Below are positions 1 to 38,687 of a stretch of DNA of 40,728 nucleotides, one piece after another. The stretch covers positions 1 to 40,728 of IMG/VR virus record IMGVR_UViG_3300044641_005075; one strand, given 5' to 3'. Positions within the stretch are counted from its first letter, which is position 1; the number at the start of each line of letters is the position of its first letter. The notes beneath the pieces are model-generated. The model worked only from the letters and a program-made list of their open reading frames with translations. It ran no database searches and was not told the origin of the DNA. Origin of the DNA: a virus. A program made the position numbers and the translations under genes.

Positions 1-200
1 GCCGACTCGCGATTGCTGACCGCACTAGCGGCCCTGCGGACGCGGCTGCGGCCGAGCGCGAGCGGCTCCGCGTGATGCTAGTACGCCACCGAGACCAGAT
101 CAGGATTAACCATCACGTCACGCTAGCCGAGTTTCACACAGCCCGTAACGCACTGCAATTGGTGCTGGATGAGTGGTACCCGGCAACTTGTGATGCTTAA
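1..200 (+). CDS. Partial hypothetical phage protein, C-terminal end (paralog of 37514-37909)
   Basis: The reading frame is open from the left edge (first full codon at base 3) to TAA at 198-200, so only the C-terminal part is present. Bases 1-180 match 37701-37880 with 7 mismatches by eye, the first 109 bases being identical. The encoded stretch keeps the acidic/arginine-rich segment and the ending LVLDEWYP of the full copy, then diverges in its last few residues. No function is recognised. The gene is one of two anchors shared by both accessory regions; the divergence begins just where cassette-type sequence begins in the other copy. Confidence 0.75.
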   Translation, partial: RLAIADRTSGPADAAAAERERLRVMLVRHRDQIRINHHVTLAEFHTARNALQLVLDEWYPATCDA

Positions 201-213
201 CGAGAGAGCTAAC

Positions 214-432
214 GTGGAAAACGCTTCGTACATATCTGCATGGGATGCAACCATAGTAGTTAAGCCAGAAAAGGACGGCCCCACATTGCGCCCGCGAATT
301 TGGCTGTGCATCATGCGCAGCGGAGCCAGCGTTTACGTCACGCTGGAACCCGTCCAAGCCGCGCAGCTTGCGGATGCCTTGCGCGCCGCCGCAATTGTTA
401 ACACCGCCGAACCGGCGCAGGTGGCGGAATGA
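214..432 (+). CDS. Small hypothetical protein (72 aa)
   Basis: I chose GTG at 214 because GAGAG at 203-207 lies at ribosome-binding distance; ATG at 193 is an in-frame alternative that overlaps the preceding stop. The stop overlaps the next gene as ATGA (429-432), so the two are translationally coupled. The C-terminal half looks like a small alpha/beta protein (hydrophobic strands, then a helix containing AAQLADALRAAA). No family is recognised. It lies in the accessory region between the partial anchor gene and the first attC-like site. Confidence 0.55.
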   Translation: MENASYISAWDATIVVKPEKDGPTLRPRIWLCIMRSGASVYVTLEPVQAAQLADALRAAAIVNTAEPAQVAE

Positions 433-611
433 GCAAGCACACAGCCGACGCGATGAACACCGACGACACCACAAGCACCACGCCGCGAGCGGCCGGTGAA
501 TACCTGCGCAACCTGCGTGCCACCGGGCGCCGCATCAAGGGCGAATGCGTCGTGACCAATGAACAAGGCTACTACGGGCAAAACGTGCGTACCGTGGTGG
601 TAGGCGCCTAA
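429..611 (+). CDS. Small hypothetical protein ending in attC site A (60 aa)
   Basis: The start ATG overlaps the previous stop (ATGA). The TAA stop at 609-611 lies inside the R'' element of attC site A, the usual arrangement for the terminal gene of an integron cassette. The product is hydrophilic, with a Thr/Ser-rich N-terminus and a short beta-prone C-terminus ending VVVGA. No function is recognised. Because no attC precedes it, the upstream border of its cassette is not defined; it may have been the last gene of a two-gene cassette with 214-432. Confidence 0.55.
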   Translation: MSKHTADAMNTDDTTSTTPRAAGEYLRNLRATGRRIKGECVVTNEQGYYGQNVRTVVVGA

Positions 612-662
612 CGCCCGAGGTAAGCCGCGCCGCTAGGCGTCGGCTTGAGCGAAGTGTTAGGC
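606..662 (+). repeat. Integron attC-like recombination site A (57 bp)
   Basis: R'' is GCCTAAC (606-612) and R' is GTTAGGC (656-662), perfect inverse complements matching RYYYAAC and GTTRRRY. Inside, AAGCCG pairs with CGGCTT, and the L' arm carries one extra base opposite L'' (TAAGCCG against CGGCTTGA), the extrahelical base that sets attC strand choice. A central CGCC/GGCG pair closes the hairpin. Orientation is the one expected for plus-strand cassettes. Its sequence is nearly identical to site B. Confidence 0.85.
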
Positions 663-680
663 CCCAACGTGGAGAACGTG

Positions 681-1010
681 ATGACCAAATACCTTGTATG
701 GCGCCCGGAGTACGGGCAAGAGCCGGAAGACGGGACGGTGGTTGACGCCTACGACGCCAACGCTGCGGCTTGCAAGTGGGCCGAGCGATACGACGCAGAC
801 GGCGCGGATTATCTGATCGTGCGCGGAACTGACGCGACAGTGCGAGTGCGAGCAGTGAACAAGCCTTCCGATGCGTGGGAACTGATCGTGAGCGGCGAGA
901 GTGTGCCGAGCTACCGGGCGCGAGTGCGGATTGCGCTGTGCGAGAAGTGCGGCCTGCCGCCCGGCTGCCCTGACTGCCGCGCCGTGCACGATGTGCCTGA
1001 AGGCGCCTAA
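681..1010 (+). CDS. Cassette-encoded hypothetical protein with C-terminal Cys cluster (109 aa)
   Basis: ATG at 681 is preceded by GGAG at 670-673. The product begins MTKYLVWRPEYGQ, has a mixed alpha/beta body and ends in a CxxC-x5-CxxC cluster (CEKCGLPPGCPDC) that could bind zinc. The TAA stop at 1008-1010 sits inside the R'' of attC site B, so one gene, a short leader and one attC make a complete cassette unit of about 400 bp. Small proteins starting this way recur in proteobacterial cassette arrays and prophages in my memory, but none has a function I can name. Confidence 0.7.
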   Translation: MTKYLVWRPEYGQEPEDGTVVDAYDANAAACKWAERYDADGADYLIVRGTDATVRVRAVNKPSDAWELIVSGESVPSYRARVRIALCEKCGLPPGCPDCRAVHDVPEGA

Positions 1011-1061
1011 CGCCCGAGGTAAGCCGCGCCGCTAGGCGTCGGCTTGAGCGACGGGTTAGGC
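1005..1061 (+). repeat. Integron attC-like recombination site B (57 bp)
   Basis: R'' is GCCTAAC (1005-1011) and R' is GTTAGGC (1055-1061). The internal arms AAGCCG and CGGCTT pair, with the same single extra base in L' as site A; sites A and B differ only near R'. Recombination in integrons occurs after the G of R', so an excised cassette would span about 657 to 1055. Two nearly identical sites flanking one gene is a canonical cassette. Confidence 0.87.
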
Positions 1062-1080
1062 CCGTTTTAACTGGAGCGAG

Positions 1081-1833
1081 ATGATGATTCACTACCACGG
1101 ACTACCGATAACGCCAGCGACGGCCGCAGCCAAGGCGGTAGACGCTGGGCACGCCTTTGTGAGCTACGCGCACGCTGACCAACTGTGCGTGGCCGTGGAG
1201 GTGTGCCAGAGCTTCGCGGTGGACAACGGCGCCTTCTCGGCATGGAAAAAGGGCGAGCACGTGCAGAACTGGCGCGGCTATTACGAGTGGGCCGCTGCCT
1301 GCAAGTTGGTGCCCGCGTGCGACTTCGCCGTGGTGCCCGATGTGATAGACGGCGACGAGGCCGACAACGACGCGCTTTTGGCCGAGTGGCCGCTGCCGCG
1401 CTGGTTTGGCGCCCCGGTGTGGCACATGCACGAGAGCCTGGGACGGCTAGAGCGATTAGCCGCAGGATGGCCTCGCGTTTGTATTGGCAGCTCGGGCGAG
1501 TTCGCAACCATCGGCACTGCCGCATGGTGGGGCCAGATTGCCCGCGCGATGCGCGTGGTGTGTAACGACGAAGGCCAGCCGCTGGTGAAGCTGCACGGCC
1601 TGCGCATGCTGAACCCCGAGGTGTTTACGCGCCTGCCGTTCGCCAGCTCCGACAGCACCAACATTGGCCGAAACATCGGCATAGACCAGACCTGGCGCGG
1701 CAACTACATGCCGCCGAACAAAGATATGCGTGCTGCCGTGATGCGCAGCCGCATAGAGTCGCACAACGCGCCCGCCCGCTGGGGTTTTTCCGTTCCAGAG
1801 ACGTATTTGAATCCACAGGAAACTTTATTTTGA
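1081..1833 (+). CDS. TGT/DpdA-like TIM-barrel protein, putative 7-deazaguanine transglycosylase
   Basis: A 250-residue protein with SD GGAG at 1073-1076; the start may be 1081 or 1084 (ATGATG). Signature segments resemble tRNA-guanine transglycosylases: VDNGAFSAW (residues 47-55) corresponds to the TGT DSGGFQ loop, VVPDVID (84-90) carries an acidic residue after a strand, VCIGSSGEF (133-141) resembles the TGT GGLAVGE loop, and LHGLRML (171-177) and SSDSTN (189-194) end later strands. DpdA members of this superfamily insert 7-deazaguanine bases into phage DNA and block restriction. That activity is inferred; no preQ0 synthesis genes are in the window. It directly follows attC site B. Confidence 0.5.
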   Translation: MMIHYHGLPITPATAAAKAVDAGHAFVSYAHADQLCVAVEVCQSFAVDNGAFSAWKKGEHVQNWRGYYEWAAACKLVPACDFAVVPDVIDGDEADNDALLAEWPLPRWFGAPVWHMHESLGRLERLAAGWPRVCIGSSGEFATIGTAAWWGQIARAMRVVCNDEGQPLVKLHGLRMLNPEVFTRLPFASSDSTNIGRNIGIDQTWRGNYMPPNKDMRAAVMRSRIESHNAPARWGFSVPETYLNPQETLF

Positions 1834-2069
1834 ACGCTTATACGACAGAATTTTTCGCAAACTGTCCGAATAACGGTTTTCGGATCAAGTATCGATTGCG
1901 CATTGAGTCGTCAGAGGTTATTCCTGTCGAACAGATCATTGCTAAAGTGGAAGCAATTAGCGATTGTTATCACGAGGAAGTGGCCGACGAAATGCTGGCC
2001 GCTTTCGGTGGCGCGCAGACGTTGGTCGCAGAACACCACGGCGTCACGATTGAAACGACCCGTCCGTAA
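1830..2069 (+). CDS. Small hypothetical protein (79 aa), TTG start
   Basis: The frame begins with TTG at 1830, overlapping the upstream TGA stop; AGGAAA at 1817-1822 is a good ribosome-binding site at the right distance, which supports this rare start. The product has a beta-prone N-terminal half (FRIKYRLRIESSEV) and a helical acidic C-terminal half. Its base composition is visibly lower in GC than the phage structural genes, a hint of separate origin. No family is recognised; the coupling suggests co-expression with the TGT-like gene. Confidence 0.55.
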   Translation: MNAYTTEFFANCPNNGFRIKYRLRIESSEVIPVEQIIAKVEAISDCYHEEVADEMLAAFGGAQTLVAEHHGVTIETTRP

Positions 2070-2097
2070 CAAAGCGTTGTATTGATTTTCGATTGTC

Positions 2098-2364
2098 ATG
2101 ACCACATCGTCCCCCGCCCTCCCCCGCGTTTGGGTTATACGCATTTTCGCCCGCCTCGAGGATCGCTACGGCGCAGCCTGGGCAGACCGCTACGGCGCCT
2201 CGCACCGCGACGAAGACGGCGAGGAACACGCGCGCCGCGTGGCCGAAGCCGCGTGGGACATTGCGGCAACCGTTGGCAAGCCGCTGGAGCAGACTGAATG
2301 CACCTGCGCCGCTAAAGATATGCCATTCGGCCGGTGCTGCAAAGTAGACCTAGAGGCGCCGTGA
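2098..2364 (+). CDS. Chimeric protein: N-terminus of the P-like replication gene joined to an unrelated Cys-containing tail
   Basis: Residues 1-38 match the start of the replication protein at 38688 (about 10 mismatches in 114 bases), covering the motif FARLEDRYGAAWADRYGAS. From about base 2212 the sequence is unrelated and continues in frame with an acidic helix and a CTCAAKDMPFGRCCK cluster, ending at 2364. The lambda P-like core is therefore missing. This is either a remnant fused to foreign sequence by recombination or a small protein that borrowed a conserved N-terminus. Its stop overlaps the next gene's GTG. Confidence 0.6.
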   Translation: MTTSSPALPRVWVIRIFARLEDRYGAAWADRYGASHRDEDGEEHARRVAEAAWDIAATVGKPLEQTECTCAAKDMPFGRCCKVDLEAP

Positions 2365-2552
2365 GCGCCCCGGCACGCGGACGCGGCCGGCCTCCGGTGG
2401 CGCCAGGCGGGACGCGGGTGCACCGGGTCACGCTAGACGACGCAACGGTCACCACGCTGCGCTATGCCGGCGAAGGCAACCTGTCGGCCGGTATCAGGCG
2501 GGCCGCGGTGAGCGTGCGCCGGGCGGCTGCGCGGCGCAAGAAGCCAGGCTAA
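2361..2552 (+). CDS. Small basic protein, possible ribbon-helix-helix DNA-binding protein (63 aa)
   Basis: GTG at 2361 overlaps the preceding stop as GTGA. The basic N-terminus is followed by HRVTLDDATVTTLRYAGEGNLSAGIRRAA, a pattern of one strand and two helices typical of Arc/MetJ-like ribbon-helix-helix proteins, and a very basic end. It would bind DNA as a dimer if this is right. Its stop overlaps by a few bases the end of the convergent minus-strand late gene (2549-2734), so this is the border between accessory region and late operon. Confidence 0.5.
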   Translation: MSAPARGRGRPPVAPGGTRVHRVTLDDATVTTLRYAGEGNLSAGIRRAAVSVRRAAARRKKPG

Positions 2553-2734
2553 GCCACGGCGTCAGGAGGGAGGTCGGTGTACCAGTCGTAATCCTTGGGC
2601 ACCGGCCAGCCGTCAAGGATGGCCTGCTCAAGCGTGGCCGCAAGCGTTTCCTCGTTGATCCCGAACGGGAACGGCGGCGATACCTTGAACGTCCGCACGT
2701 AGGCGGAGATGGCGGTTTCCAGCCGTTGCGTCAT
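2549..2734 (-). CDS. Small protein coupled to the MuF-zincin gene, candidate immunity protein (61 aa)
   Basis: The start ATG at 2734 overlaps the stop of the MuF gene as ATGA. The product, beginning MTQRLETAISAYVRTF, is acidic, has a helix followed by FPFGINEETLAATLEQAILDGWPVPKDYDWY, and has no signal or membrane segment. No family is recognised. A small acidic gene translationally coupled behind a MuF protein with an effector-like C-terminus is the place expected for an immunity protein, but it could equally be an ordinary head accessory protein. Confidence 0.55.
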   Translation of the reverse strand: MTQRLETAISAYVRTFKVSPPFPFGINEETLAATLEQAILDGWPVPKDYDWYTDLPPDAVA

Positions 2735-4632
2735 AGCGTACCTATCAGGGTCTTGAACACAGCCGCCGAGCGCGGCACGAACCGTTGCGTCAGCTCCCAC
2801 CATAGCGGGTTCGGGTGCCCTGCCAGCGACGTGAGGTTCGCGAACGCCTCAGTGCCGTAACCATATCCGGGCCGTTTGGCGTAGTAACTAGCCGAGTGCC
2901 CGGCGTAGCCGGCTGCGAAGTCGCACGCGGTGTTCTTTGTGACGGCGCCGATCAGGTCGGAGAAAGTGAGCAGCGAGCCGTCTTTCCGCCACGCCTGCGA
3001 AACCACGTAGGACCAGCTCGCCAGGTCGAGCGCGTCGGTCGCTTCCTCGGCGCGGTCCTTCATCGTGGCCCAGCGCACGAACCCCTCGCCGTCGCCGATG
3101 CGAATGGCTTCGATGATGCGCCCGATCCGGTACGCGCCGGCCGAGCTGGTCAACGGGTCGCCGATAGTGCTTTTTGCGATCACCGGCGTCGACTGATTGA
3201 GCAGCCGGTACAGCTCGTCGAAGTCCACGCGCGCGGCCTTCGCCATGTCGCGCAGCAGCGCCTCGCGTTGGTCTTCCGGCGTGTCGTTCACGCGCTCGGC
3301 CACGCGGTCGTATACCTGATCGGATTCCGTCCGCTTGAGCATCATGCCGGTGCTATGCGGCGCCGTCGCCACCAGGCGCTGCGCGTCGTCCCGCATGGCG
3401 TCCTGAAACGGCTTTGACTGCGAAATGTACCGGTCCGATAGCCCAGCCGCTCGGGCAGCGCGCCAGTCCAGAATGTGCCCGAACTCATGCCGCCAGACGG
3501 CCTGCGCGTTCGCCGTGCCGCGCGCCTCGCCGTCCATGTCGATGAGCTGGCCGCCGCGCGCAAATGCGCCATTTTTCGACCGGGCGGCGGCGTTGACGAA
3601 CTTTTCCGCCTTCACCTTTTCGGCCAGCCAATCCGGCGTGCCGGTCCATGATTCGGTATGCCACCGCCCGGCCGACGTTTTCGGGTCGAAGTCCGGCACC
3701 GGCGCCTTGGTCACGGCCTTGCGGGCCGGCGGCGGCAGCACCTGCACTTTCTCGACCAGCACCCGCCGCAGGCCGGCGCCCACGTCCTGCCCCGGATTGC
3801 GGTCGAAGCCGGGATCGATGCCGTTAGGCACCTTGATCACCTGCCCGGTGCGCGGGTTCGTCCACTTGTACGCGCCGTCGTCGGGCGGCGCGGTCGGCCG
3901 GATGCCCAGCTCGCGCAGCTCGTCCTCGCTCACCTGGATCACGCCGCACCTGCAATTCCACCCATTCGGCGGGTAATGGGTACGCCACCACGGCGAATCC
4001 ACCGGCAGCGTCGTGCGATCCCAGCGCCGGTGCGCTTCGCGCGTGCGCAGATCGTCCACGGCGTCGTAAATGAGGTACGGCGCGATATCGGCCTGCGCCT
4101 CGATTTCCGTCCACGCCTGCGCGGCGTAGGCGGTCTGCATGTTGGTGCGGAAGATTGTCTCCAGGCGCCAGGCGCTGCCGAGCTGCGCTTGGACGGTGCG
4201 GCCGGTCAACGGATCCACCATCGAGCGGGTGCCCCACCACCCGGCCGACTCCAGCGTCGGCTGTATGGTCGCCTTCCATTCGCGGAACTGCTGCCCCTCG
4301 GCGAGCGCTGCCGTCAGCGAGTCGCGCACCTGCCCGAGCAGGTCCACGTCCATCATCTTGGCGACGGTGAACGCCTGGTCGTTGACCGCGCCGATCATGT
4401 CGGCATAGCTGAAGCTCGGGCGCAGCCCCTTGCCGCGGAAGTAGGCGAGCGCGCGCTCGGGTTCCACGTCGAAGGCGAGCCCGCCCACGTCGAGGAACTC
4501 GGCCACACCGGTGCGCTCGGCCATTTCCTCGGCGAACTCGGCCGCGTCGGCCTTCAGCCGCTCGATGGCGTCGGCAGCCTGCGCGAGCAGGCGCACCTCG
4601 GCCAGCGTGATGCGCAGCCCGAGCCCGCTCAC
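2731..4632 (-). CDS. MuF head morphogenesis protein with C-terminal HEFGH metallopeptidase-like domain
   Basis: GTG at 4632 overlaps the portal stop (GTGA), giving 633 residues; the open frame further upstream is a shadow of the portal gene. Residues about 130-240 hold the Mu gpF-like core (FRTNMQTAYAAQAW, DDLRTREAHRRWD, YPPNGWNCRCGV), which acts in head assembly and is often packaged in the virion. Residues about 320-633 are an added domain with HEFGH at 382-386, the HExxH zinc site, and TEAFA at 594-598 as possible third ligand E595. MuF proteins with variable C-terminal toxin domains are a known phage polymorphic-toxin class; an effector role here is inferred. Confidence 0.85.
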   Translation of the reverse strand: MSGLGLRITLAEVRLLAQAADAIERLKADAAEFAEEMAERTGVAEFLDVGGLAFDVEPERALAYFRGKGLRPSFSYADMIGAVNDQAFTVAKMMDVDLLGQVRDSLTAALAEGQQFREWKATIQPTLESAGWWGTRSMVDPLTGRTVQAQLGSAWRLETIFRTNMQTAYAAQAWTEIEAQADIAPYLIYDAVDDLRTREAHRRWDRTTLPVDSPWWRTHYPPNGWNCRCGVIQVSEDELRELGIRPTAPPDDGAYKWTNPRTGQVIKVPNGIDPGFDRNPGQDVGAGLRRVLVEKVQVLPPPARKAVTKAPVPDFDPKTSAGRWHTESWTGTPDWLAEKVKAEKFVNAAARSKNGAFARGGQLIDMDGEARGTANAQAVWRHEFGHILDWRAARAAGLSDRYISQSKPFQDAMRDDAQRLVATAPHSTGMMLKRTESDQVYDRVAERVNDTPEDQREALLRDMAKAARVDFDELYRLLNQSTPVIAKSTIGDPLTSSAGAYRIGRIIEAIRIGDGEGFVRWATMKDRAEEATDALDLASWSYVVSQAWRKDGSLLTFSDLIGAVTKNTACDFAAGYAGHSASYYAKRPGYGYGTEAFANLTSLAGHPNPLWWELTQRFVPRSAAVFKTLIGTL

Positions 4633-9946: not shown

Positions 9947-10332
9947 GATGCCGCCCGCACCGGAACACCCGCAAATGTCCTGCGCGGCTCCGGCGTGTCG
10001 CGGAGCTGGCGCAAGATGTGGCTGATCGACTGCCGGGTTAGGCCGTAGCGCAGGCCGATCTGTTCCTGACTCATGCCCGCGTCTGCGTCGCGCAGAATCG
10101 CGGCGTTCCGCAGGTCAAGCAGCGCGTTTCGTTCGGCCGGCAGTTGCAGGCGCCGGCCGCCGAATGCCGACACAAGCCGCTGCGCCGTGTCGAGTCCGAG
10201 CGTGAGCGCCAGCGGATCGCCCGGCGACACCTTGACCGGGATGTATGCCTCGCGCCCGCCCCAGCGCCGGCAAACCTCGATGGCGTCGCCGAGGCCGATC
10301 GCGTCGGCCAGCTCCCTCACGGCTCGTTGCAT
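9943..10332 (-). CDS. Mor-family transcription activator (Mu Mor/C-like)
   Basis: ATG at 10332 is chosen, with a G-rich SD upstream; the open frame further upstream shadows RusA. The 129-residue product has the Mor layout: an N-terminal dimerisation part (ELADAIGLGDAIEVCRRWGG), a strand with YIPVKV, then a C-terminal helix-turn-helix (SQEQIGLRYGLTRQSISHIL). Mor and C of phage Mu activate middle and late promoters. Lying between the replication genes and the lysis and packaging genes, it is the best candidate for the late-gene activator. Confidence 0.78.
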   Translation of the reverse strand: MQRAVRELADAIGLGDAIEVCRRWGGREAYIPVKVSPGDPLALTLGLDTAQRLVSAFGGRRLQLPAERNALLDLRNAAILRDADAGMSQEQIGLRYGLTRQSISHILRQLRDTPEPRRTFAGVPVRAAS

Positions 10333-10703
10333 GGTGCCCCCCCTTCTTTCGGCCCGATGGTGACCTCCACTTGCCCGCCGCCTGGCTTCGGGTCGTGCAT
10401 ATTGACCACCAGCCGCTTGATCTGTGAGTCGTCGCTCCATACGCCCGCGTGCGTCAGCGCGTCAAACAGAGACTTCAGCGGGTTGTCGACGTCCCGTTTT
10501 CGTCGGTCCGGCGGCGTTAGGTCCACTTGCACCGCCAGGATTCCGCCCAGCGGGAATATACCAGCGGCAATCTCGCACACCGCGGCGCGGTACTGGCGCC
10601 CCTGCTTGCTGATCAGGTGCCGTCCGGCCAGCGGCCCGCGCGTCGGGTGCCGCCAGTAGGTGTTTACGCTTGGCGGGTAAGGCAGGCGCAGATGCCGGCT
10701 CAC
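10317..10703 (-). CDS. rusA: RusA-like Holliday junction resolvase (copy A)
   Basis: A 128-residue protein with LPYPPSVNTYWR at the N-terminus and the catalytic acidic residues D71 and D73 (KRDVDNPLK) and D91/D92 (SDDSQI), spaced as in E. coli RusA. RusA dimers resolve Holliday junctions and process replication or recombination intermediates before packaging. It overlaps the downstream activator and the upstream small gene. A second RusA gene lies at 39623-40000 with about the same length and all catalytic residues. Confidence 0.93.
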   Translation of the reverse strand: MSRHLRLPYPPSVNTYWRHPTRGPLAGRHLISKQGRQYRAAVCEIAAGIFPLGGILAVQVDLTPPDRRKRDVDNPLKSLFDALTHAGVWSDDSQIKRLVVNMHDPKPGGGQVEVTIGPKEGGAPCNEP

Positions 10704-10846
10704 GGCGCCACCTGCTTACGCTGCGCCTCCTGCCACTGTTGGACGGCCATGCGCTCGGCGCTCGCGCGTGGGAAGCCGGCCTCAAATTCCAAGATGGCTG
10801 CCCGTTCTTCGATCCATTCTTCGCGGTGCAGCTCCGCTTCGCTCAT
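10700..10846 (-). CDS. Small hypothetical protein (48 aa), paralog of 39447-39626
   Basis: Start ATG at 10846 overlaps the upstream stop (ATGA), and the stop overlaps RusA. The core HREEWIEERAAILEFEAGF with SAERMAVQQW is closely matched by the protein encoded immediately upstream of the second RusA gene, so the pair travels with rusA. It is helical and acidic; no function is known. Conservation of a 48-residue product in two modules shows it is a real gene. Confidence 0.75.
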   Translation of the reverse strand: MSEAELHREEWIEERAAILEFEAGFPRASAERMAVQQWQEAQRKQVAP

Positions 10847-11061
10847 GCTCGCGTCCCTTTCATCATTGCCCAGGCGTCCTCGCGCAGCCTGGCCGCCTCG
10901 CCTACGCTGCGCTTCGTGGCGACCGCGGCAAGGTATGCCGCCCGGTCCTTGTTCGTGCGCATGCCGGCAACATGCCGCACTTCGCACGCATGCCGGTGCG
11001 CCCGAGTGTACGTCGGCGCAGGGTCGGTCGGCGCGCAGTCCTCGCATCGGCAGGCGGTCAT
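10843..11061 (-). CDS. Small hypothetical protein with N-terminal Cys cluster (72 aa)
   Basis: Start ATG at 11061 overlaps the stop of the tiny membrane gene (ATGA); the stop overlaps the next gene. The N-terminus MTACRCEDCAP and a later HACEV give a possible zinc site; the rest is basic and helical (RTNKDRAAYLAAVATKRSV). No family is recognised. A Cys-containing small protein sits at the equivalent position in the right-hand RusA module (39259-39480), though sequence similarity between the two is not obvious. Confidence 0.65.
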   Translation of the reverse strand: MTACRCEDCAPTDPAPTYTRAHRHACEVRHVAGMRTNKDRAAYLAAVATKRSVGEAARLREDAWAMMKGTRA

Positions 11062-16905: not shown

Positions 16906-19059
16906 TCAAGGCGTGTAGGTGAACACGTGCACGTGCTTCTGCCGGCTGGCGATCCCTGAGCGATCAGACCACAGCTCGACCCGGAGCGTGTACGGCGAGG
17001 CGATGGCCGCGAGGATGTGGCTGGTCGTGTTCAGGTTGCCGTGCGTCTGCAGCAGGGTGTTCATGCCGTGATCGTAGATCCGAATCTCGTACTTGACCCC
17101 AGTCTCGGGTCCGATGTTGCCCGACTCGTCCCCTTCGAGGTTCTGCACGGTCCGGTCGCGGTGCCGCCATGACACGGTGAGCGTGCCGGTCAACGCGGCC
17201 GGGTATGCCTGCCCGTTCAGGCGAAACTGGCCCGGCGGGTACGGCCGGTAGTGCCGCTGGTCAAACGTGACCGCGTCAGTCGGCGCGCTGCTCTCGGCGA
17301 GCGTTCCCAGGCCTGTGCGCGTGAGCAGCTTGGCCTGTACCAGGTCGCCGTCCACCCGCTCGATGCCGTCGGAGGACACGTACCCCGAGGCGAACAGCAC
17401 GCGCGCCCCGGCCGCGTGCGAGGCCGCCACGGTGTCGAGTACCCCGCGGCCGAGCGTGACCGCGCCGGTCGTGATGTTAATCGTGTCGATCCGCACCACC
17501 TCGACCCCGCCGATGATGGCGTAGCCGCCCGCCGCCACGAGGTCAAGGTCCACCTCGGCCGTGATCGTGGCCGAGGTGGCCGCAGGCCCGAGCGCGCCGG
17601 CCAGCGTGGCCGTCGGGCAGAAGTCGACTACGTCGGTTTCGGCAAACGGTCCCGAGGCGCCGAACCGGGTCACGGCCGAGGCGTTGAGCGAGCCCGCGGC
17701 CGGCCGCGCGGCGACGATGGCGAGGAACCCGGCGTCGTTCGGCAGCACGCTCAGGTCGGCGGCCGAGAGCTGGCGTTGCAGCTCGTACCAGCTCGCCTCC
17801 TCCACGAGCCGGGCGGTCACGGCGACCGGAGGCTGCGCCGGGTCAGTCCACCCGGACGGCTGCTGCGCGGTGTAGGTCGTAGACGGCAGGCCGAATACGT
17901 CCTCGGCCGCCTCGATCGTGATGGCCGAGTCGGTGAGCGTGCCCAGGTCCACGGTCAGCACCCGCAGCGCGAGGTCGACGATGCCCAGCTTCGTCCACGT
18001 CATCCGGATCATGTCGCCCGGCAGCACGGCATAGGCCTCGCGGTTGACCCGCATTTTTACGCGCGCGATTGGCGTCGAAAGGCTGCGCAGGTCGCGCAGC
18101 GCGATCCGCTGCGCCAGCTCGGCCGTCGGCAGGCCGGGATAGGCCCGCGATGCGCTCACCGGCCCGCCTTGCGCATTGATCTGCGCGAGATTCTGCACGG
18201 TGACCGCGCCGGTCTTGCCGGTGGCCAGGTCGGTGAAGGTGACCGACAGCTCGTTCGTGGCCTCGACCGTGGCCGCGCGCTGGTAGGAATCCAGCGCCAG
18301 CACGTTTGACGGGTCGAACAGCGGGAGCGCGGGCACGCTGTAGCCGCCGCGGATCGGGCGCAGCACAAAAAGCCCGGTCGTGCGGTCCTGGCCGCACACC
18401 GCCCCGGCGTGATCCATGACGAGCTGCACAAAGGCTTCGATGCTGGTCTGCCGCGTCCATGCGAGGCACAGGCCGAGCCCCTCGCCGTGGAACGTGTCGG
18501 CGGCCGCGGTGAAGCTCGCCGCGTCGATCTGCCCGGTACTGTAGCCCATGCCCCACTCGGCATTTGTCAGGCACTCATAGACGATATGCGCCGGGTTTGC
18601 GGCCTGGTCGCCGTTGGCGAGCGTGATGCTTGCCTTTGCGCTGTACCAGGCCGTGCCGCCCTGCCAGCCCTGCAGGATGCGCCGCGCCTTGACCTTCCAC
18701 GGCTTCACGTAGGGGTTATTCGCGGCGATCATGCCGCCGCGCCAGACGAGCCCGAGAATGCCCCGATAGGCCGGCTGCGGCGTGCCCTGCTGGGCGGTCA
18801 GGTAGGCGTTCGCGGTCTGCGCCGCCTCGCCCATCATCACGTCAAGCGTGCCCACGAGGCCGCCTTCGCGCGCCTCGCCGCCGAACAGCTCGGGCGCGTT
18901 GATCGAGAGCGAGCCGCTGCCCGTCTGCGTGCCCGTCCATGCCGCCCGATCGCCCGCGCGCACCTGAAGGATCGCGTCCACCGGCCCCGCGCACAGCGCG
19001 AGATGCAGGCCGAGGTAATAGCGGTACCCGACGGTTTGGTCCTTGCCCCCGCTGCTCAT
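16906..19059 (-). CDS. Tail tip / central tail protein (gpJ-like, 717 aa)
   Basis: The ATG overlaps the upstream stop and follows a strong SD (GGAGGGCGGGC). The N-terminal part, GYRYYLGLHLALCAGPVDAI followed by the GILGLVWRGGMIAANNPYVKP segment, is typical of phage central tail/tip proteins that follow the small genes at 19056-19501. The middle is beta-rich; the last about 120 residues form an immunoglobulin or fibronectin-like sandwich (YPAALTGTLTVSWRHRDR onward). It is the last late gene and would contact the host surface. Confidence 0.82.
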   Translation of the reverse strand: MSSGGKDQTVGYRYYLGLHLALCAGPVDAILQVRAGDRAAWTGTQTGSGSLSINAPELFGGEAREGGLVGTLDVMMGEAAQTANAYLTAQQGTPQPAYRGILGLVWRGGMIAANNPYVKPWKVKARRILQGWQGGTAWYSAKASITLANGDQAANPAHIVYECLTNAEWGMGYSTGQIDAASFTAAADTFHGEGLGLCLAWTRQTSIEAFVQLVMDHAGAVCGQDRTTGLFVLRPIRGGYSVPALPLFDPSNVLALDSYQRAATVEATNELSVTFTDLATGKTGAVTVQNLAQINAQGGPVSASRAYPGLPTAELAQRIALRDLRSLSTPIARVKMRVNREAYAVLPGDMIRMTWTKLGIVDLALRVLTVDLGTLTDSAITIEAAEDVFGLPSTTYTAQQPSGWTDPAQPPVAVTARLVEEASWYELQRQLSAADLSVLPNDAGFLAIVAARPAAGSLNASAVTRFGASGPFAETDVVDFCPTATLAGALGPAATSATITAEVDLDLVAAGGYAIIGGVEVVRIDTINITTGAVTLGRGVLDTVAASHAAGARVLFASGYVSSDGIERVDGDLVQAKLLTRTGLGTLAESSAPTDAVTFDQRHYRPYPPGQFRLNGQAYPAALTGTLTVSWRHRDRTVQNLEGDESGNIGPETGVKYEIRIYDHGMNTLLQTHGNLNTTSHILAAIASPYTLRVELWSDRSGIASRQKHVHVFTYTP

Positions 19060-31599: not shown

Positions 31600-33153
31600 C
31601 TAGGCGTAGGTGATGAAACCAGTCACGTCGTTCAACGTGATGGCGGTGTTGTCGGTGTTCCCGCGTCCACCTGTGATGGCAACGCTGATGGCGGTTGCAA
31701 ACCCGACGCCGCCTTCGCCCGTCAAGATATCGACGGGCACACTGTTGGGCGGTAAAGCGATATCGAGGATGGCCGAGGTCGTTCCCATGACCACGGAGCC
31801 GGCGGCGGTGTTGAACACCTTGAGATAGCGGGTGGAGGCGTTGCTGTTGACGGCATAGACCTTGATCAAGCGACCGGCCGCACCCTTGGCCGCCTGCGCT
31901 GCCGGCGTGGCGGGGGAACTGAGGTTGACGGGCGTCGCGGCACCAGTGGCGCTGCCGCGGTACTGGATGCCCACGTCGGCGGCCAGGTTGGTGCCGGCCG
32001 CGAGCGTGGGCGTGTTGGTAGCAATCGACACGGGCTGCGTCGCTTGCCAGAACGTGCCGCTGACGGGCAACGCCTGGCTGGTGCCGTGCGGGCGCACACC
32101 GGCCAGGTACACCGGAAAATTGACGGTATCCTCGATGCTGACGAACCCGACCGTCCAGGTGGTGCCGCTGGCCGGCGCGGTGGTGCCGTTGAAGCTCCAC
32201 ACGTACAGGAACAGCTCGATGTCCTGCTCGGGGATGTTGATCCAGCGGTGCGCGCGGCTGGTGAGTGTTGGCGTGGCAGCGGATGCGACCAGGCCGTCCT
32301 GGAAGTAGATGTTGCGGCCATCAATGGCCGTTTGCGCCATGTGGCCCGGCGAGGCCGTGGTGTTGATGGTGGCAGCGGTGTCGCCGGTATTCCAGCCCAT
32401 GCGCTGGCTGTCGACGTTGGCGGTGGTGGCGCTGGTGCCGGTGTACAGCCAGCGGACATAGTTCCAACCGAACAGATCGAGCGTGCAGCTACCGCTTGCA
32501 GGCCAGCCCGCGACCGTGAAGTTGATCGTGTTCGCATCCGGAATCGACGCGATTGCATACCGACCCGGCACGCCGTTGGCGCCGCTGATGGCGCCGATCA
32601 GCATGCTCTGGCCGACGTTGGCGGCCGTGAATCCGTGCGCGGTGAGCGTGACACTGATGCTGGTGGCGCTGTTGATCGTGCAGCTGAGGCCCTCGCCAAT
32701 GCGATCGGCCAGCAGCACGGCGAAGTTGTTGTTGACGATGCGCTGCGACAGGATGGTCTGGTGCCGCTTGATGACCGCGCCGTTGAACGAGACGACCGAG
32801 CGCGCCAGAAACTCGCTGTTGGCGGTGGTGCCAGCGGTGACGACCAGATTGCCGTTGCTTTGGCTGACGCCGACCCCGGTGCCGAGCCGGCGCTGCGTCA
32901 TGTCCGCCGTGTCGAGCGCCGAGCCGTTGACGCGCGTGAAGCTCACGCACCAAGTGTTTTGCGGCGTGTGGCGCGTGACGAGGCCGGCGTCATTGGTGTC
33001 GGCGTTGGCGGCCTTGACGCGGGCGTGGACCGTGCTGTCGGCCAGGCCATCGGTGAGCTTGATGCGCTGATAGTGCGCGTTGTTGGGCGCGGTGCCGATG
33101 TCGTCCGTGGATATCGGCTCGTTAGTTCCGGGGAGGATAACGTTGCTAGCCAT
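31600..33153 (-). CDS. Large beta-rich virion protein (517 aa)
   Basis: ATG at 33153 (MASNVILPGTN) is used, two bases after the preceding stop. N-terminal NAHYQRIKLTDGLADSTVHA is a segment I recall from phage structural proteins near the head genes. The remainder is beta-strand-rich with Ser/Thr/Gly, including WRTGTS-like and jelly-roll-like stretches (GLVASAATPTLTSRAHRWIN, then IELFLYVWSFNG). Probably a decoration fibre or neck/collar protein. Confidence 0.68.
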   Translation of the reverse strand: MASNVILPGTNEPISTDDIGTAPNNAHYQRIKLTDGLADSTVHARVKAANADTNDAGLVTRHTPQNTWCVSFTRVNGSALDTADMTQRRLGTGVGVSQSNGNLVVTAGTTANSEFLARSVVSFNGAVIKRHQTILSQRIVNNNFAVLLADRIGEGLSCTINSATSISVTLTAHGFTAANVGQSMLIGAISGANGVPGRYAIASIPDANTINFTVAGWPASGSCTLDLFGWNYVRWLYTGTSATTANVDSQRMGWNTGDTAATINTTASPGHMAQTAIDGRNIYFQDGLVASAATPTLTSRAHRWINIPEQDIELFLYVWSFNGTTAPASGTTWTVGFVSIEDTVNFPVYLAGVRPHGTSQALPVSGTFWQATQPVSIATNTPTLAAGTNLAADVGIQYRGSATGAATPVNLSSPATPAAQAAKGAAGRLIKVYAVNSNASTRYLKVFNTAAGSVVMGTTSAILDIALPPNSVPVDILTGEGGVGFATAISVAITGGRGNTDNTAITLNDVTGFITYA

Positions 33154-33155
33154 CA

Positions 33156-33809
33156 CTAGATTCGCAGGATGCGGTTGGCGCCGTTGCTCCACGCCGCGGT
33201 GATGTCACCACCGTTTGGCGTGATTGGTAGGTTCCCGCCGGAATACGCAACCTCGTACACCGCCTCGACGTTCGCCGCGCTCCCGAGTGCCGACGTGGTG
33301 AGCGTGCGCGCACCGGCCGAGGCTGCAGCCCCGAGCGTGATTGTGGCCGGGCCGGTACCGCTGATGAGCGTGGCCACGGCGCCGTTCGCGATCCCGAGCT
33401 GGAGCGCGTCCACGGTGACCGCGACCGCGCCGCTGCTGGCGTTCGCCGCGAGCGTGAACCGGAACCGGCCGTCGAGGATCGCCACGAGCCGCTGCGAGCT
33501 GGCCGCTACGTCGGCGCCGCCGCCGACCGCCGAGGCCTGGAACAGCAGGATGGCCGGGATCGCCGCGCCGGCCGCCACCGCGCTCCACGTCACGTCGTTT
33601 GCGTCCAGCACGCCGTCGGTGAACGACACGCCGCCGAGCGCCGAGCTGGTCAATACCAGCGTGCCGCCCGCGCCGGTCACGTCGCTCACAAACGTGTGCG
33701 CGGCGTTGTAAGTGTAGCCGCGCAGTAGCGCTGCCTTCAGGACGGCGGTGTCGAGGTCAATCAGGCCAGTGCCGAGGCCCTGCCTGCCGTTGGCGAAAAA
33801 CTGATCCAT
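33156..33809 (-). CDS. Hypothetical virion-region protein (217 aa)
   Basis: SD AGGAAGG lies upstream of ATG 33809. The start MDQFFANGRQGLGTGLIDLD and the motif TYNAAHTFVSDVTGAGG, repeated in style by TSSALGGVSFTDGVLDANDV, are seen in small phage head-proximal proteins. The sequence is Ala/Gly-rich and beta-prone. It likely belongs to the head or neck; the exact role is unknown. Confidence 0.7.
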   Translation of the reverse strand: MDQFFANGRQGLGTGLIDLDTAVLKAALLRGYTYNAAHTFVSDVTGAGGTLVLTSSALGGVSFTDGVLDANDVTWSAVAAGAAIPAILLFQASAVGGGADVAASSQRLVAILDGRFRFTLAANASSGAVAVTVDALQLGIANGAVATLISGTGPATITLGAAASAGARTLTTSALGSAANVEAVYEVAYSGGNLPITPNGGDITAAWSNGANRILRI

Positions 33810-33822
33810 GCGCGCCTTCCTG

Positions 33823-34035
33823 TTAGGCGATGGCGCCGGAGGCGAGGAACGGCGCCGCCGTCTCGTCGTCCAGCTCGATGCGGGAACCCGGCGCGTGCAG
33901 CTCGCCGGCGATCTTCACGTGCCAGACCACGAGATAGCCGGGCTCGGCCTGCTCGACGGGCGGCTGCGCGACGGCCTGCTGCTCTGGCTCGACGGCCTCG
34001 ACGGCCTCGACGGCGTCCTGCTTGTGCTTGCTCAT
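33823..34035 (-). CDS. Small acidic hypothetical protein (70 aa)
   Basis: SD GAGGG before ATG 34035. The N-terminal half is Glu/Val/Ala/Pro-rich (EAVEAVEAVEPEQQ) and probably disordered; the C-terminal half (YLVVWHVKIAGELHAPGSRI, DETAAPFLASGAIA) is a small beta domain common in phages next to the capsid gene. Role unknown. Confidence 0.72.
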   Translation of the reverse strand: MSKHKQDAVEAVEAVEPEQQAVAQPPVEQAEPGYLVVWHVKIAGELHAPGSRIELDDETAAPFLASGAIA

Positions 34036-34112
34036 GTCCTAGTCCCTCGATTTGAAACGGGCCGGCACGTTGCAGCACCGGCCCGCCTGCTGCACGGTCA
34101 GGGTGCCGCCTG

Positions 34113-35057
34113 TTAGGCGATGCAGTCCTGGATGTAGTAGCCGCAGTCGGCCGCGGTGATCAGCTCTTTCACCGACTCGCCGGTCCGCACGCGGGTTGCG
34201 CCGCGAAGCCCGACCTTCGGTTCGTCCATCGAACCGGCGATACGGGTGCCGTACTCGGCCGTGGCGCCGAACGTGATGCCGTTCCCGCGCAGGGACGCGA
34301 GCGGGTTCATGTGCATCATCGCGAAGTGGTTACCCCACACGCGCGAGAGCGTCGCCGTCTGCCCCGGCTTGGCGGTGTTGATCATCGCGCGGCCGACCAG
34401 CACCTGGTCGAACTCGAACAGATCCTGGAACTGCTGGAGCGAGATGATGCCGTCGCCCGAGTAGTTGACCGGGAAGATGGCCGCCAGGATTTTCGGGTGC
34501 CGGCGCAGCGCGAACCACACGCGCTCGCCTATCACGCAGGTGTTCAGCGGCATGAGCGCCGCCTCTTTGCCCGCCATGATGTCGGCCGTGGGGTCGCTCA
34601 CTGCCTGCGCGTACTGCTGCCACTGGTCGTTGCCGGAGAGCTGCACCTTGTTGCCCACCGGGTAGGTGGCCGCGTTGAACACCAGGTCGGCGCAGCGCTT
34701 TTCGCGGTCGAGCATGATGAGTTGCGTCAGCCCTTCGACGGCGCGGCCGATCGGGTCGAGGCCCGGCTTGTTGGCCGCGGCCTGCACGTCCTCGACCGGG
34801 ATCACGTCATCAAGGCCGAAGTCGTCCACCGAGCTGGTCTGCTCGGAGGCGGTGAACTCGACCTCGTTCGGTGCGCCTTTGCGCCCGACGCGCGTGCTCG
34901 GCACGGTGAACAGGTCGGCGCGGGTGTGCAGATCCCACTTGAACTCGCGCGCGGTGACGCCGATGCGCGGCAGCACCTGGTCCGCGATCATCGTGCGGTT
35001 CTGGTAGGCCAGCGCGATGGCGGTGTACTGCGGGGCCGGGGTAAACGGGAATTTCAT
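34113..35057 (-). CDS. Major capsid protein (314 aa)
   Basis: SD AAAGGA before ATG 35057. The sequence has the hallmarks of an HK97-fold capsid: N-terminal AIALAYQNRTMIADQVLPRI, GRKGAPNEVEFTASEQTSSV near the E-loop, the P-domain helix IGRAVEGLTQLIMLDREKRC and GERVWFALRRHPKILAAIFP. It lies after protease and decoration protein in transcription order. It forms the icosahedral shell. Confidence 0.92.
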   Translation of the reverse strand: MKFPFTPAPQYTAIALAYQNRTMIADQVLPRIGVTAREFKWDLHTRADLFTVPSTRVGRKGAPNEVEFTASEQTSSVDDFGLDDVIPVEDVQAAANKPGLDPIGRAVEGLTQLIMLDREKRCADLVFNAATYPVGNKVQLSGNDQWQQYAQAVSDPTADIMAGKEAALMPLNTCVIGERVWFALRRHPKILAAIFPVNYSGDGIISLQQFQDLFEFDQVLVGRAMINTAKPGQTATLSRVWGNHFAMMHMNPLASLRGNGITFGATAEYGTRIAGSMDEPKVGLRGATRVRTGESVKELITAADCGYYIQDCIA

Positions 35058-35083
35058 TGCGATGTCCTTTCAGGTTCGGAGGG

Positions 35084-35458
35084 TTAGCCCTGGATGCGGC
35101 CCGGGGCCAGTCGGACGCTGCCGATATCGCCCAGCACACCCGAGGTCATGGAGACCCCGATCACGCGCGCGTTCACGCCCGCAGCGGGCGCGGCAGCCAC
35201 GGCGCGGCCGACCGAATCGGAGGTCAGCATGTCGCCGCGGGTCACGTTGCCGCCGTACTCGACCAGCGCAATCCCGTCGATGATCACGTCGAACGGCTCG
35301 CCCGAGCTGGCGCCGAGGTTGTCGCTCACGCCCATGAGCAGGTCCGTCGATGCCGCCGCGTGGATCGCGGACAAGTCGTCTGCGCCGAACTTCAGCACGC
35401 GGTTTTTCGTCACCGCTGCTCCGGCGATCAGGGTTTTTTGCAGTCCCTCGTTTCGCAT
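35084..35458 (-). CDS. Capsid decoration protein, DUF2190-like (124 aa)
   Basis: SD CAGGAG before ATG 35458. A small beta-rich protein with the family pattern ITKN-like start (LIAGAAVTKNRVLKFGADDL), LLMGVSDNLGASSGEPFDVI and GGNVTRGDMLTSDSVGRAV, ending IGSVRLAPGRIQG. It sits directly before the major capsid gene, as gpD-like decoration proteins do, and would stabilise the shell. Confidence 0.85.
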   Translation of the reverse strand: MRNEGLQKTLIAGAAVTKNRVLKFGADDLSAIHAAASTDLLMGVSDNLGASSGEPFDVIIDGIALVEYGGNVTRGDMLTSDSVGRAVAAAPAAGVNARVIGVSMTSGVLGDIGSVRLAPGRIQG

Positions 35459-35486
35459 GTCGATATTCTCCTGATGGTGTGCCGGG

Positions 35487-36641
35487 TTACTCGGCGGTCA
35501 TGACCAGCGACACGGCTTCCGTGAAGCTGATGTGCTTGCCTTCGGCGGCGCGCGTGCGCACCAGCTCGCGCGCCTTCTCGGCCACGGCCTCCGGGCCGCT
35601 CGCGTCGTCGGGCGGGTTGTCGCCGGCGCGGGAATGCTCGCGGTAGTCGACTATCTTCGGCCTCGCTTCAAGCTGGCGCAGGTAGTGTTCGCGCGGCGTG
35701 ACCTTTTCTGCCTTGTCGCCCTCGCCGAACTCCACGGTCGCCGCGTCGGCCGGCAGTGCGCAGGCGAACGACACGGCACCGGCGCGCTGGGCGGGCAGCA
35801 TGCGACCGGCCTGCACCACGGCGTCGATCCGCGCTTCGATGGCCGCGCGCGAGATGCGTTTCTCGGCCTCGGCCACGGTCGTCTCGCGGGCGGCGATCGC
35901 CGTCTCGCGCTCGGCGAAGCTGGCCGCCTGGTCGGCGTTGGCCTTGAGCGCGTCGCGCTCGGCGGTGAGCGCAGCGACTTGCGCCTGAAGCTGTTCGATC
36001 GTCATTGCATCGTCCTCGGAATAGGCGGGCATCGCCGCAGGGGAAGGTGTCTCGTCGTCGGCCTCGGGCGGCTTGCGCGCCTCGTTTTCGATGTTCTCGA
36101 CGAAGAAGTCGGGCAGCACGGAATCGGCCTTTTCGATGCCGTGTTCGGCGATCAGGAATTCGCGCATCCGGCGCATGAACATCGCCAGGATGCCGGTTAC
36201 CATCGCCGAATCGGAGAACTCGATCACGCCGTCCTCGTCGTCGGCGAAGCTCACGTCTTTGAGCCCCTTCACGGCGGGCGGCTGCGCGCCGAGGAAGCCC
36301 ACGTGCCGCAAATACAGCGTGCCAGGCTGCGGGTTGTTCGGCGCGTCTGGCAGATACCACGAGGCGCTGCGCTTTTTGAACCGGCCGGCTTTCACCAGCT
36401 CGGCGAAAGCCGCGTCCACCTGTTGAGGTTCTGCCTTGACCTCGCCATCGGTGAAGCTCAACGAGCCCACCCAGCCATAGGCGGGCGCATTGTCTCGCGG
36501 GTGCCCGACCACGATCGGCGCCTCGTGCAGCGCCGGGTCGTACGCTTTGACCGCTGCTCGCAGGTCGTCCTCGGAAAAGTCCAGCGCCGCCCCGCTGCTC
36601 GCGGTGTGCCGGCCGGTGCGGAAGATGGGGAACGGTTTCAT
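35487..36641 (-). CDS. Phage prohead protease-scaffold (Mu gpI-like, 384 aa)
   Basis: First gene of the head-tail operon, about 63 bases from a candidate promoter; no clear SD is visible. The N-terminal half (MKPFPIFRTGRHTA, APIVVGHPRDNAPAYGWVG, RFKKRSASWYLPDAPNNPQP, GTLYLRHVGFLGAQPPAVKG) is the gpI protease, where H and S of VVGH and RSAS fit catalytic roles. The C-terminal half is helical, coiled-coil scaffold (MTIEQLQAQVAALTAERDAL). It cleaves scaffold and itself during head maturation. Confidence 0.9.
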   Translation of the reverse strand: MKPFPIFRTGRHTASSGAALDFSEDDLRAAVKAYDPALHEAPIVVGHPRDNAPAYGWVGSLSFTDGEVKAEPQQVDAAFAELVKAGRFKKRSASWYLPDAPNNPQPGTLYLRHVGFLGAQPPAVKGLKDVSFADDEDGVIEFSDSAMVTGILAMFMRRMREFLIAEHGIEKADSVLPDFFVENIENEARKPPEADDETPSPAAMPAYSEDDAMTIEQLQAQVAALTAERDALKANADQAASFAERETAIAARETTVAEAEKRISRAAIEARIDAVVQAGRMLPAQRAGAVSFACALPADAATVEFGEGDKAEKVTPREHYLRQLEARPKIVDYREHSRAGDNPPDDASGPEAVAEKARELVRTRAAEGKHISFTEAVSLVMTAE

Positions 36642-36705
36642 GCCGGCATGATAACGGCGCCTCTGAAGCTGCCGCTATCCGCAAACATCATTTTTGCTGA
36701 TGCAG

Positions 36706-36734
36706 TTGACATGATATTTTCATGGCCGTACTAT
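36706..36734 (+). promoter_or_regulatory. Strong sigma70-like promoter of the right-hand accessory operon
   Basis: -35 TTGACA (36706-36711) is a perfect consensus, the spacer is 17 bases and the -10 is TACTAT (36729-36734, 5 of 6). Transcription would begin near 36741, about 35 bases before the first start codon. Confidence 0.8.
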
Positions 36735-36739
36735 TCCAA
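36711..36739 (-). promoter_or_regulatory. Candidate leftward promoter of the head-tail operon, interlocked with the rightward one
   Basis: On the minus strand -35 TTGGAA (36739-36734, 4 of 6), 17-base spacer, -10 TATCAT (36716-36711, 5 of 6). It shares bases with both elements of the rightward promoter, so the two cannot be occupied together. The leader to the protease start would be about 63 bases. Confidence 0.55.
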
Positions 36740-36775
36740 CGCCACCCACCGCAGCATTAACAGAGGAGCAGCACT

Positions 36776-36919
36776 ATGACCACCATCAGCGCCCTAGCAG
36801 TGACCGACTACAGCCAGAACTACGGCGGCGTCCCCGTGATGATCGACGGCCGTGAATGCTTGATCAACAGCGTGGGCGAGGCACTTTCAAGCACAGAGGT
36901 GGAGTTAATTGCTGCCTAA
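36776..36919 (+). CDS. Small hypothetical protein (47 aa)
   Basis: Too short for most gene finders, but AGAGGAG at 36762-36768 sits eight bases before ATG 36776, directly behind the strong promoter. The product starts MTTISALAVTDYSQNYGGVP and is acidic towards the end. Its TAA lies in GCCTAACGC, the same half-site seen at cassette ends. First gene of the operon; function unknown. Confidence 0.65.
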   Translation: MTTISALAVTDYSQNYGGVPVMIDGRECLINSVGEALSSTEVELIAA

Positions 36920-36938
36920 CGCAACAAGGAGAGAGAGC

Positions 36939-37121
36939 ATGAACACCAAACCGCAGCAATGGCTCGGCCTCGACGCCGGCCCGCTTTTTGAGCAGTTTCG
37001 AGACGCGCAGATGACGGACCAGCAGAGATTGGAGCGCAAGCGCCAGGCTGCGATCGACTGGCTCGGCGAGCGGTGGATTCTGCACCCCCTGCATCGTGTC
37101 CAGCGCGTGGTGCAATCGTGA
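36939..37121 (+). CDS. Small hypothetical protein (60 aa)
   Basis: ATG at 36939 follows AAGGAGAGAGAG, a strong SD; the open frame upstream is not needed. The product is helical and charged (LFEQFRDAQMTDQQRLERKR then QAAIDWLGERWILHPLHRV), typical of small early phage proteins. The stop overlaps the next gene's GTG (GTGA). Function unknown. Confidence 0.65.
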   Translation: MNTKPQQWLGLDAGPLFEQFRDAQMTDQQRLERKRQAAIDWLGERWILHPLHRVQRVVQS

Positions 37122-37285
37122 TCCGCGTTGAATTCGTCGGCACACCTGCGCACGTGCAGGCCACGATCGACGATTACATGGAGCGATATCACCCCGTCGG
37201 GTACGGCACTCAGGTAGTCGCTACGACTGAGTTACCCGACGGCCGCGTCGCGGTCGTCGTTTCACGGTTTGACAGTTGTGACTAA
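37118..37285 (+). CDS. Small hypothetical protein (55 aa), GTG start
   Basis: GTG overlaps the preceding TGA. IRVEFVGTPAHVQATIDDYM and ERYHPVGYGTQVVATTELPD suggest a strand-helix-strand fold. No family is recognised. Coupling to both sides supports that it is real. Confidence 0.62.
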   Translation: MIRVEFVGTPAHVQATIDDYMERYHPVGYGTQVVATTELPDGRVAVVVSRFDSCD

Positions 37286-37298
37286 GCAGAGAGAGACG

Positions 37299-37517
37299 AT
37301 GAAAGCCACTTACACCTGGAACACTGACGCAGCATCCGGCACTGTCACGGCAGATGACATTGACGCCGCCCTGGAACAACTTGTTGTTCAGGGCGAGTGG
37401 GCAGAACCTGAAAGCGCCCGCGAGCAGCGCGACATTGCCAACGGCGCGTTCCTTATCATTCGTGGCCCGCAAGAGTCTCTTGTCATTCGAAGCCCAAAAG
37501 GGAGTGGTGAGCGATGA
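37299..37517 (+). CDS. Small hypothetical protein (72 aa)
   Basis: ATG at 37299 with AGAGAGAG upstream. The product has the features ATYTWNTDAASGTVTADDID and AALEQLVVQGEWAEPESARE with a beta-prone end. The stop overlaps the next ATG (ATGA). No function is recognised. Confidence 0.65.
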   Translation: MKATYTWNTDAASGTVTADDIDAALEQLVVQGEWAEPESAREQRDIANGAFLIIRGPQESLVIRSPKGSGER

Positions 37518-37909
37518 AGCTTAATTGGACTGACGACCGCGTCGAGGAACTGGAAGATCTGGGGACGCTGCTGCGCGAAGCTGCCGCGATCAACCACGGC
37601 AGCAATTGCCTAGAGCGGATTCAGCGCGTCATTGCGCTGGCCGACGCGCTGAACCGCGAAGATTTTCCTAGGGGCTGCGAAAGCCTGCACAGTTTTTTGC
37701 GCCGACTCGCGATTGCTGACCGCACTAGCGGCCCTGCGGACGCGGCTGCGGCCGAGCGCGAGCGGCTCCGCGTGATGCTAGTACGCCACCGAGACCAGAC
37801 CAGGATTAACCATAACGTCACGCTGACCGAGTGTCTCGCAGCCCGTAACGCACTGCAATTGGTGCTGGATGAGTGGTACCCGACTACTGGGCGCTGCGCC
37901 AGATTCTGA
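37514..37909 (+). CDS. Hypothetical phage protein, full-length anchor gene (131 aa)
   Basis: ATG overlaps the preceding stop. A helical, charged protein with LREAAAINHGSNCLERIQRV and a C-terminal region AERERLRVMLVRHRDQTRIN. Codons from 37700 onward match the partial copy at bases 1-180, with the divergence at the very end where attC-type sequence starts. It marks the upstream anchor of the variable cassette locus. No function is recognised. Confidence 0.72.
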   Translation: MKLNWTDDRVEELEDLGTLLREAAAINHGSNCLERIQRVIALADALNREDFPRGCESLHSFLRRLAIADRTSGPADAAAAERERLRVMLVRHRDQTRINHNVTLTECLAARNALQLVLDEWYPTTGRCARF

Positions 37910-37936
37910 GGCGTTAGCATGTGTCGGGCTAACGCC
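37910..37936 (+). repeat. Cassette-border inverted repeat
   Basis: GGCGTTAGC (37910-37918) and GCTAACGCC (37928-37936) are perfect 9-base inverse complements. The left arm resembles the R' end of a lost cassette and the right arm contains the R'' of attC site C, as if an R' core abuts the next site without a gene. Confidence 0.6.
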
Positions 37937-37983
37937 AGCTTAAGCGGCGACCGTAGGCCGTCCGCTTGAAGCGATAGTTATGC
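37927..37983 (+). repeat. Integron attC-like recombination site C (57 bp)
   Basis: R'' is GGCTAAC (37927-37933) and R' is GTTATGC (37977-37983), less perfect than sites A and B. Inner arms AAGCGG and CCGCTT pair, and L' again has one extra base (AGCTTAAGCGG against CCGCTTGAAGC). Same 57-base length and orientation as A and B. It follows the anchor gene. Confidence 0.72.
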
Positions 37984-38071
37984 GGCACTGGCTATGCCCT
38001 TGTGTGGTGATGAATTATGCGATTGTGCTTCTTCGCTTTGAACAGAAGCGCCAGATCAAGAAGGATGCAAA

Positions 38072-38685: not shown

Positions 38686-38687
38686 CC

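Follow-up and report, generated by a model that had tools for sequence, protein, structure and literature searches.

The window analyzed here spans all 40,728 bp of an IMG/VR virus record. Near its left end a single gene, with GGAG ahead of its ATG, lies between two closely similar sites, A and B. The initial annotation had read this arrangement as a complete integron gene cassette; the coordinates that it gave for the two sites proved exact, and the complementary boxes, paired arms, and single extrahelical base that it described were borne out. The relevant features are as follows.

429 to 611, plus strand: upstream gene, 60 amino acids (aa), with its TAA stop inside the left box of site A; it matched no family.
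606 to 662, minus strand: attC site A, covariance model score 69.9 bits, E = 2.2e-15; in this polarity R'' is 662 to 656 and R' is 612 to 606.
681 to 1010, plus strand: cassette gene, 109 aa, phrog_21008 (a phage family of unknown function, E = 1e-20), with the tail CxxCGLPPGCPDC.
1005 to 1061, minus strand: attC site B, 66.7 bits, E = 1.4e-14.
1081 to 1833, plus strand: gene of the site B unit, a queuine tRNA-ribosyltransferase-like phage protein, phrog_887 (E = 6e-71).
1830 to 2069, plus strand: downstream gene, 79 aa, phrog_37496.
37927 to 37983, minus strand: a third, diverged attC site, 29.1 bits, E = 3.8e-5, overlooked in the initial annotation.

Scoring with an attC covariance model had been proposed as a check on sites A and B. 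The model that we used was built solely from 14 plasmid and bacterial attC sites, and its E values are rough. The two sites are 57 nucleotides (nt) each and are 97% identical across a 63-bp repeat. Their boxes are perfect 7-nt complements (GCCTAAC/GTTAGGC), their inner arms pair, and each has one extrahelical base; the window sites thus have the R''/R' core boxes, paired L arms, extrahelical base, and covariance-model match that define attC. The z score of the site A fold was −3.9 on the plus strand and −3.0 on the minus strand. A structural heuristic run over the window found only sites A and B; its background was 3 matches in 2.04 Mb of Markov-shuffled window sequence, or about 0.06 expected per window. 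The sequence of the sites resembles the attC of aadB, with about 82% identity between site A and aadB-type sites, and that of other resistance cassettes; 4,436 PLSDB plasmids contain matches. A search of Rfam with the sites returned no family, and a reading of them as terminators or promoters was discarded because such patterns were not above chance. These results support the identification of A and B as true integron-type attC sites that delimit a cassette-like unit in a phage.

The polarity of the sites is another matter. All three match the covariance model on the minus strand only, while the genes around A and B are on the plus strand; on the plus strand, the right arm holds the extrahelical base; and the plasmid records used for comparison have their resistance cassette genes antisense to the strand that corresponds to the window plus strand. 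These three facts indicate that the recombining (bottom) strand is the coding strand, so the earlier claim that the sites are in the correct orientation does not hold. The TAA stop of the cassette gene does lie inside the left box of site B, as had been noted, but that box is R', the one that is cleaved, and not R''. From the published IntI cut, G|TTRRRY (PMC9892861), the predicted cut is GCCTAA|C, which on the plus strand falls between 611 (A) and 612 (C) at site A and between 1010 and 1011 at site B, in both cases directly 3' of the upstream gene's TAA stop. The mobile unit predicted from this polarity and cut is as follows.

612 to 1010, plus strand: predicted "attC-first" unit of 399 bp, consisting of attC A, a ribosome-binding site (RBS), the open reading frame (ORF), and its TAA.

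Such a unit would be the mirror image of the normal gene-attC cassette. In class 1 aadA/aadB-type cassettes (e.g., NZ_CP096962), the boxes, L stems, and extrahelical base are like those of the window sites, but the gene comes before its attC and has the attC top strand as its coding strand, whereas in the window both relationships are reversed. Plasmid and bacterial controls had the canonical arrangement. A cassette-like unit bounded by attC sites is present in the phage, as the initial annotation held, but its gene is inverted relative to attC and belongs to a phage family, so its anatomy is not exactly that of an integron cassette.

No tyrosine recombinase or integrase was found in searches of the contig with PF00589 and TIGR02249. 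Being without an integrase, the window is not a complete integron (intI, attI, and an attC array); with A and B 399 bp apart and no intI close by, it has instead the composition of a CALIN (at least two nearby attC sites and no intI close by). Relatives of the phrog_21008 cassette gene occur in Pseudomonas and Klebsiella phages and also in locus L040. The site B gene had no match in PDB or NCBIfam; a gene pair equivalent to 1081 to 1833 and 1830 to 2069 is found in locus L095 with an attC on either side. When 24 kb of the window was compared with named phages by Megablast, no relative appeared apart from a terminase patch.

To compare gene orientation among other viral sequences, we used a degenerate attC half-site pattern that is blind to gene orientation, which yielded 34 stretches from viral contigs, and a search with the site B gene, which yielded 80 loci of relatives. 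The relatives are mostly metagenomic contigs called viral by IMG/VR, with a terminase in only some. In 28 pattern-found viral loci, analyzed with the covariance model and one simple gene caller, 161 flanking genes were reversed and 19 were canonical; this count was made after removal of near-duplicates and of L027, which has a complete integron integrase and a canonical array. The controls gave the opposite result: 4 reversed to 25 canonical beside bacterial chromosomal intI genes, and 11 to 60 in plasmid and bacterial loci. Locus L014 has 12 attC sites on 4.5 kb, every one reversed. Canonical or mixed viral contigs are few (L025, L011, L035, L036, L038, and L041); L036, a 169-kb contig of a very large phage, has nine attC-model matches with mixed gene orientation. 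The mirror-image pattern is general, and the reversal is systematic across many viral contigs.

Integron integrases lie beside such arrays in other phages. On contig G011 (L019), the N-terminal part of an integron integrase adjoins a reversed array; the truncated gene is at 18420 to 18620 of the contig (L149, 1453 to 1815). A search with this integrase found L158, which encodes a protein of 353 aa that scores 410.9 bits to TIGR02249 (cutoff, 265), and a search from L158 found related integron integrases at 22 loci on 21 viral contigs, several of the loci being near-duplicates or fragments. The two ends of one 39,785-bp contig (L158 and L179) each carry the start of one intI gene, so that genome is probably circular or terminally redundant.

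At the IntI loci attC is on the strand opposite intI, as in ordinary integrons, the exception being one weak duplicate, and the cassette genes point toward intI (73 reversed versus 3). Residues R146, K171, H277, R280, H303, and Y312 are kept in all 14 distinct full-length phage IntIs, as is the IntI-specific insertion, and the 14 proteins group as a single clade (support, 0.996) that excludes 38 bacterial IntIs with about the same similarity to the query. The loci L158 to L180, with intact IntI genes beside reversed attC arrays in phage contigs, have the defining features of a proposed phage IntI clade. The genes alongside include a second, phage-type integrase, an endolysin, and tail-fiber genes; the companion phage-type integrase had no match in 369 bacterial genomes, in a search run without a positive control. 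Related cassette genes are shared by phages with and without IntI, e.g., L020 and L173 at 87% identity. In named phages, IntI matches came from host-derived cases already covered by Qi et al. 2023 or class 1 integrons, from two fragments of Acinetobacter phages, and from Rctr41k (KX853513; L219, 4680 to 5678). In Rctr41k the gene annotated as xerD is an integron integrase (TIGR02249, 383 bits) codirectional with all its neighbors; its two heuristic attC candidates are co-oriented with the genes and were missed by the model, and so we did not count it.

We conclude that the window is probably a phage with a small integrase-less, CALIN-like array of phage-specific, mirror-image attC units that would be moved by an integrase acting in trans.

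The anatomy of the phage sites bears on this reading and on its alternatives. Of 168 viral sites, 78 have a left-box TAA that is exactly the stop of an open frame of 40 codons or more. Among 60 long sites, 34 contain the start of a frame of 45 codons or more inside the hairpin, reading on across the right arm; 20 of these also have an RBS-like motif ahead of that start. The viral sites in these counts include a few canonical contigs. Clear examples of starts in the loop are as follows.

L058, 2340 to 2430
L060, 4689 to 4784
L065, 3111 to 3212
L005, 2899 to 2993

Among the 105 distinct phage sites aligned, pairing was intact in 91.4% of pair cells, and there were 257 double-changed cells versus 81.6 ± 6.3 in shuffles, counts that lean toward the model because the alignment was fitted to it. 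When partners were slid, pairing in the same sites fell to 30% to 37%, and this difference is the stronger argument for covariation.

Since some hairpin loops hold an RBS-like motif and a start codon, the sites may be attC derived and yet function now as RNA elements, either terminators or hairpins that present an RBS and start, or as seeds for homologous recombination, and not as IntI substrates. Identical 57-bp sites could seed such recombination, and the window is without an integrase. We nevertheless consider this reading unlikely: the boxes retain the IntI core and the extrahelical base and show strong covariation, terminator-like patterns do not exceed chance, no Rfam family was found, and intact IntI genes adjoin such arrays in other phages.

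Segments common to different phages start at attC. The offset is 0 nt for the window and L056, where homology begins on the first base of site B, and 0 for L037/L041; it is 1 to 2 nt for L019/L058, 2 for L006/L056, and −3 for L022/L023, although box conservation by itself tends to carry alignments as far as the attC edge. The downstream flank alone is shared in 15 site pairs and the upstream flank alone in 1 (window/L041), but 11 of the 15 were ascertained via the site B gene, so the bias-free count is 4 to 1. In the related phages L056, L058, L060, and L065, differing genes and attC sequences lie upstream of the site B gene; in L059 that gene is 91% identical and has no attC upstream. Among the cassette genes, those examined having been chosen for their recognizable look, are five N6_N4 DNA methylases (L058, L060, L014, L019, and L032) and a Mom protein (L010). 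The C-terminal tail CGLPPGCPDCRAVHDV is common to two otherwise different genes, at 4001 to 4069 of L041 and 939 to 1010 of the window, in each directly before attC; this pair is the single case in which the end of an upstream gene travels with the attC site.

That phages carry attC clusters and integrons was reported by Qi et al. 2023 (PMC9892861), who documented host-derived integrons in phages; IntI1 recombined 5 of 6 tested phage attC sites with attI1, and the TJE1 and PH101 arrays were described as structurally typical of bacterial arrays (PMC9892861). The phage CALINs of that study are, like the window, attC clusters without an integrase in phage genomes. In contrast to the TJE1 and PH101 arrays, window-type genes are inverted relative to attC, and some start codons are in attC loops. 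TJE1 itself was uninformative as a comparison for the mirror-image class, having one canonical-looking site by the heuristic and none by the model. Vibrio anguillarum phages, P1 isolate L-II, and Shewanella M16-3 likewise have IntI and an attC array inside a phage, but these are captured bacterial integrons, unlike the phage IntI lineage found here; in Shewanella M16-3 the genes beside intI are divergent from it, whereas those of the phage lineage read toward it.

With such captures documented (PMC9892861), and with aadB-type attC sites so similar to site A, the window could hold ordinary host cassettes, a fragment of a bacterial array captured as in the Vibrio and P1 phages, in which the reversed gene is incidental. 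This seems quite improbable: the reversal is systematic, both over many viral contigs and next to phage IntI genes; both the cassette gene and the site B gene are members of phage families; and bacterial arrays come out canonical under the same analysis. Inverted repeats are abundant in GC-rich DNA, but the probability that the sites are chance hairpins or repeats unrelated to integrons is close to nil. That reading is already refuted by the covariance-model scores (E about 1e-15, the model having been trained on bacterial attC sites), and the scant 0.06 heuristic matches expected per window and the single polarity of the three sites also speak against it.

Under the preferred reading, an integrase-less array of mirror-image units, each unit would run attC, RBS, gene, and TAA stop, with the predicted IntI cut right after the stop, and the recombining attC strand would be the coding strand of the phage operon. 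We infer that recombination occurs and that the units would be excised and inserted by an integron integrase acting in trans; for the window phage, the source of this enzyme would be either a co-resident phage of the IntI lineage or a host integron. Phages could in this way exchange ready-to-translate genes, including DNA modification (probably anti-restriction) genes, inside one codirectional transcription unit. In mirror-image arrays the recombining strand, being the coding strand, is the lagging-strand template wherever genes follow the fork; such placement may favor mobility, and the orientation may be an adaptation. In sedentary chromosomal integrons the bottom strand is mostly on the leading-strand template, which limits excision (PMC11023631, PMC5371416). 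These integrons and the phage arrays have the same attC folding logic and strand choice, but in the phage arrays the bottom strand is the coding strand.

In an open-access collection, from which most subscription papers and all preprints are absent, we found no account of inverted cassettes in phages or of a clade of phage integron integrases. With attC in phages already published (PMC9892861), what appears to be new is the mirror-image layout and the phage integrase clade.

Integrons are regarded as bacterial platforms that are occasionally carried by phages. On balance, we lean toward the view that phages keep an integron lineage of their own, with a monophyletic integrase and mirror-image cassettes that are transcribed with the phage operon and through which they trade genes such as DNA methyltransferases, and that the window is a nonautonomous member served by an integrase in trans. 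If so, this lineage, with its inverted and self-contained translation units, would account for some of the turnover of small genes and anti-restriction genes in phages and would provide a defined, testable mechanism for phage-phage gene exchange. It would also be a natural experiment on how cassette mobility is tuned by the orientation of the attC strand with respect to transcription and replication. Because the sites resemble resistance-cassette attC sites, cross talk with host integrons can be asked about directly.

Positions 1 to 188 of the window correspond to 37701 to 37888, and locus L007 fuses window positions 32826 to 37888 (99.8%) straight to positions 1 to 3067 (100%). The L007 junction indicates that 37889 to 40728, with the third attC site, is an alternative version of the region after the gene at 37514 to 37909; the window ends may represent two variants or a chimera. 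The right-end genes at 38687 to 40000 (helicase-loader-like and RusA-like) are diverged second copies of 2097 to 2211 and 10317 to 10912, and the copies at 10.3 to 10.9 kb are on the opposite strand to their right-end counterparts.
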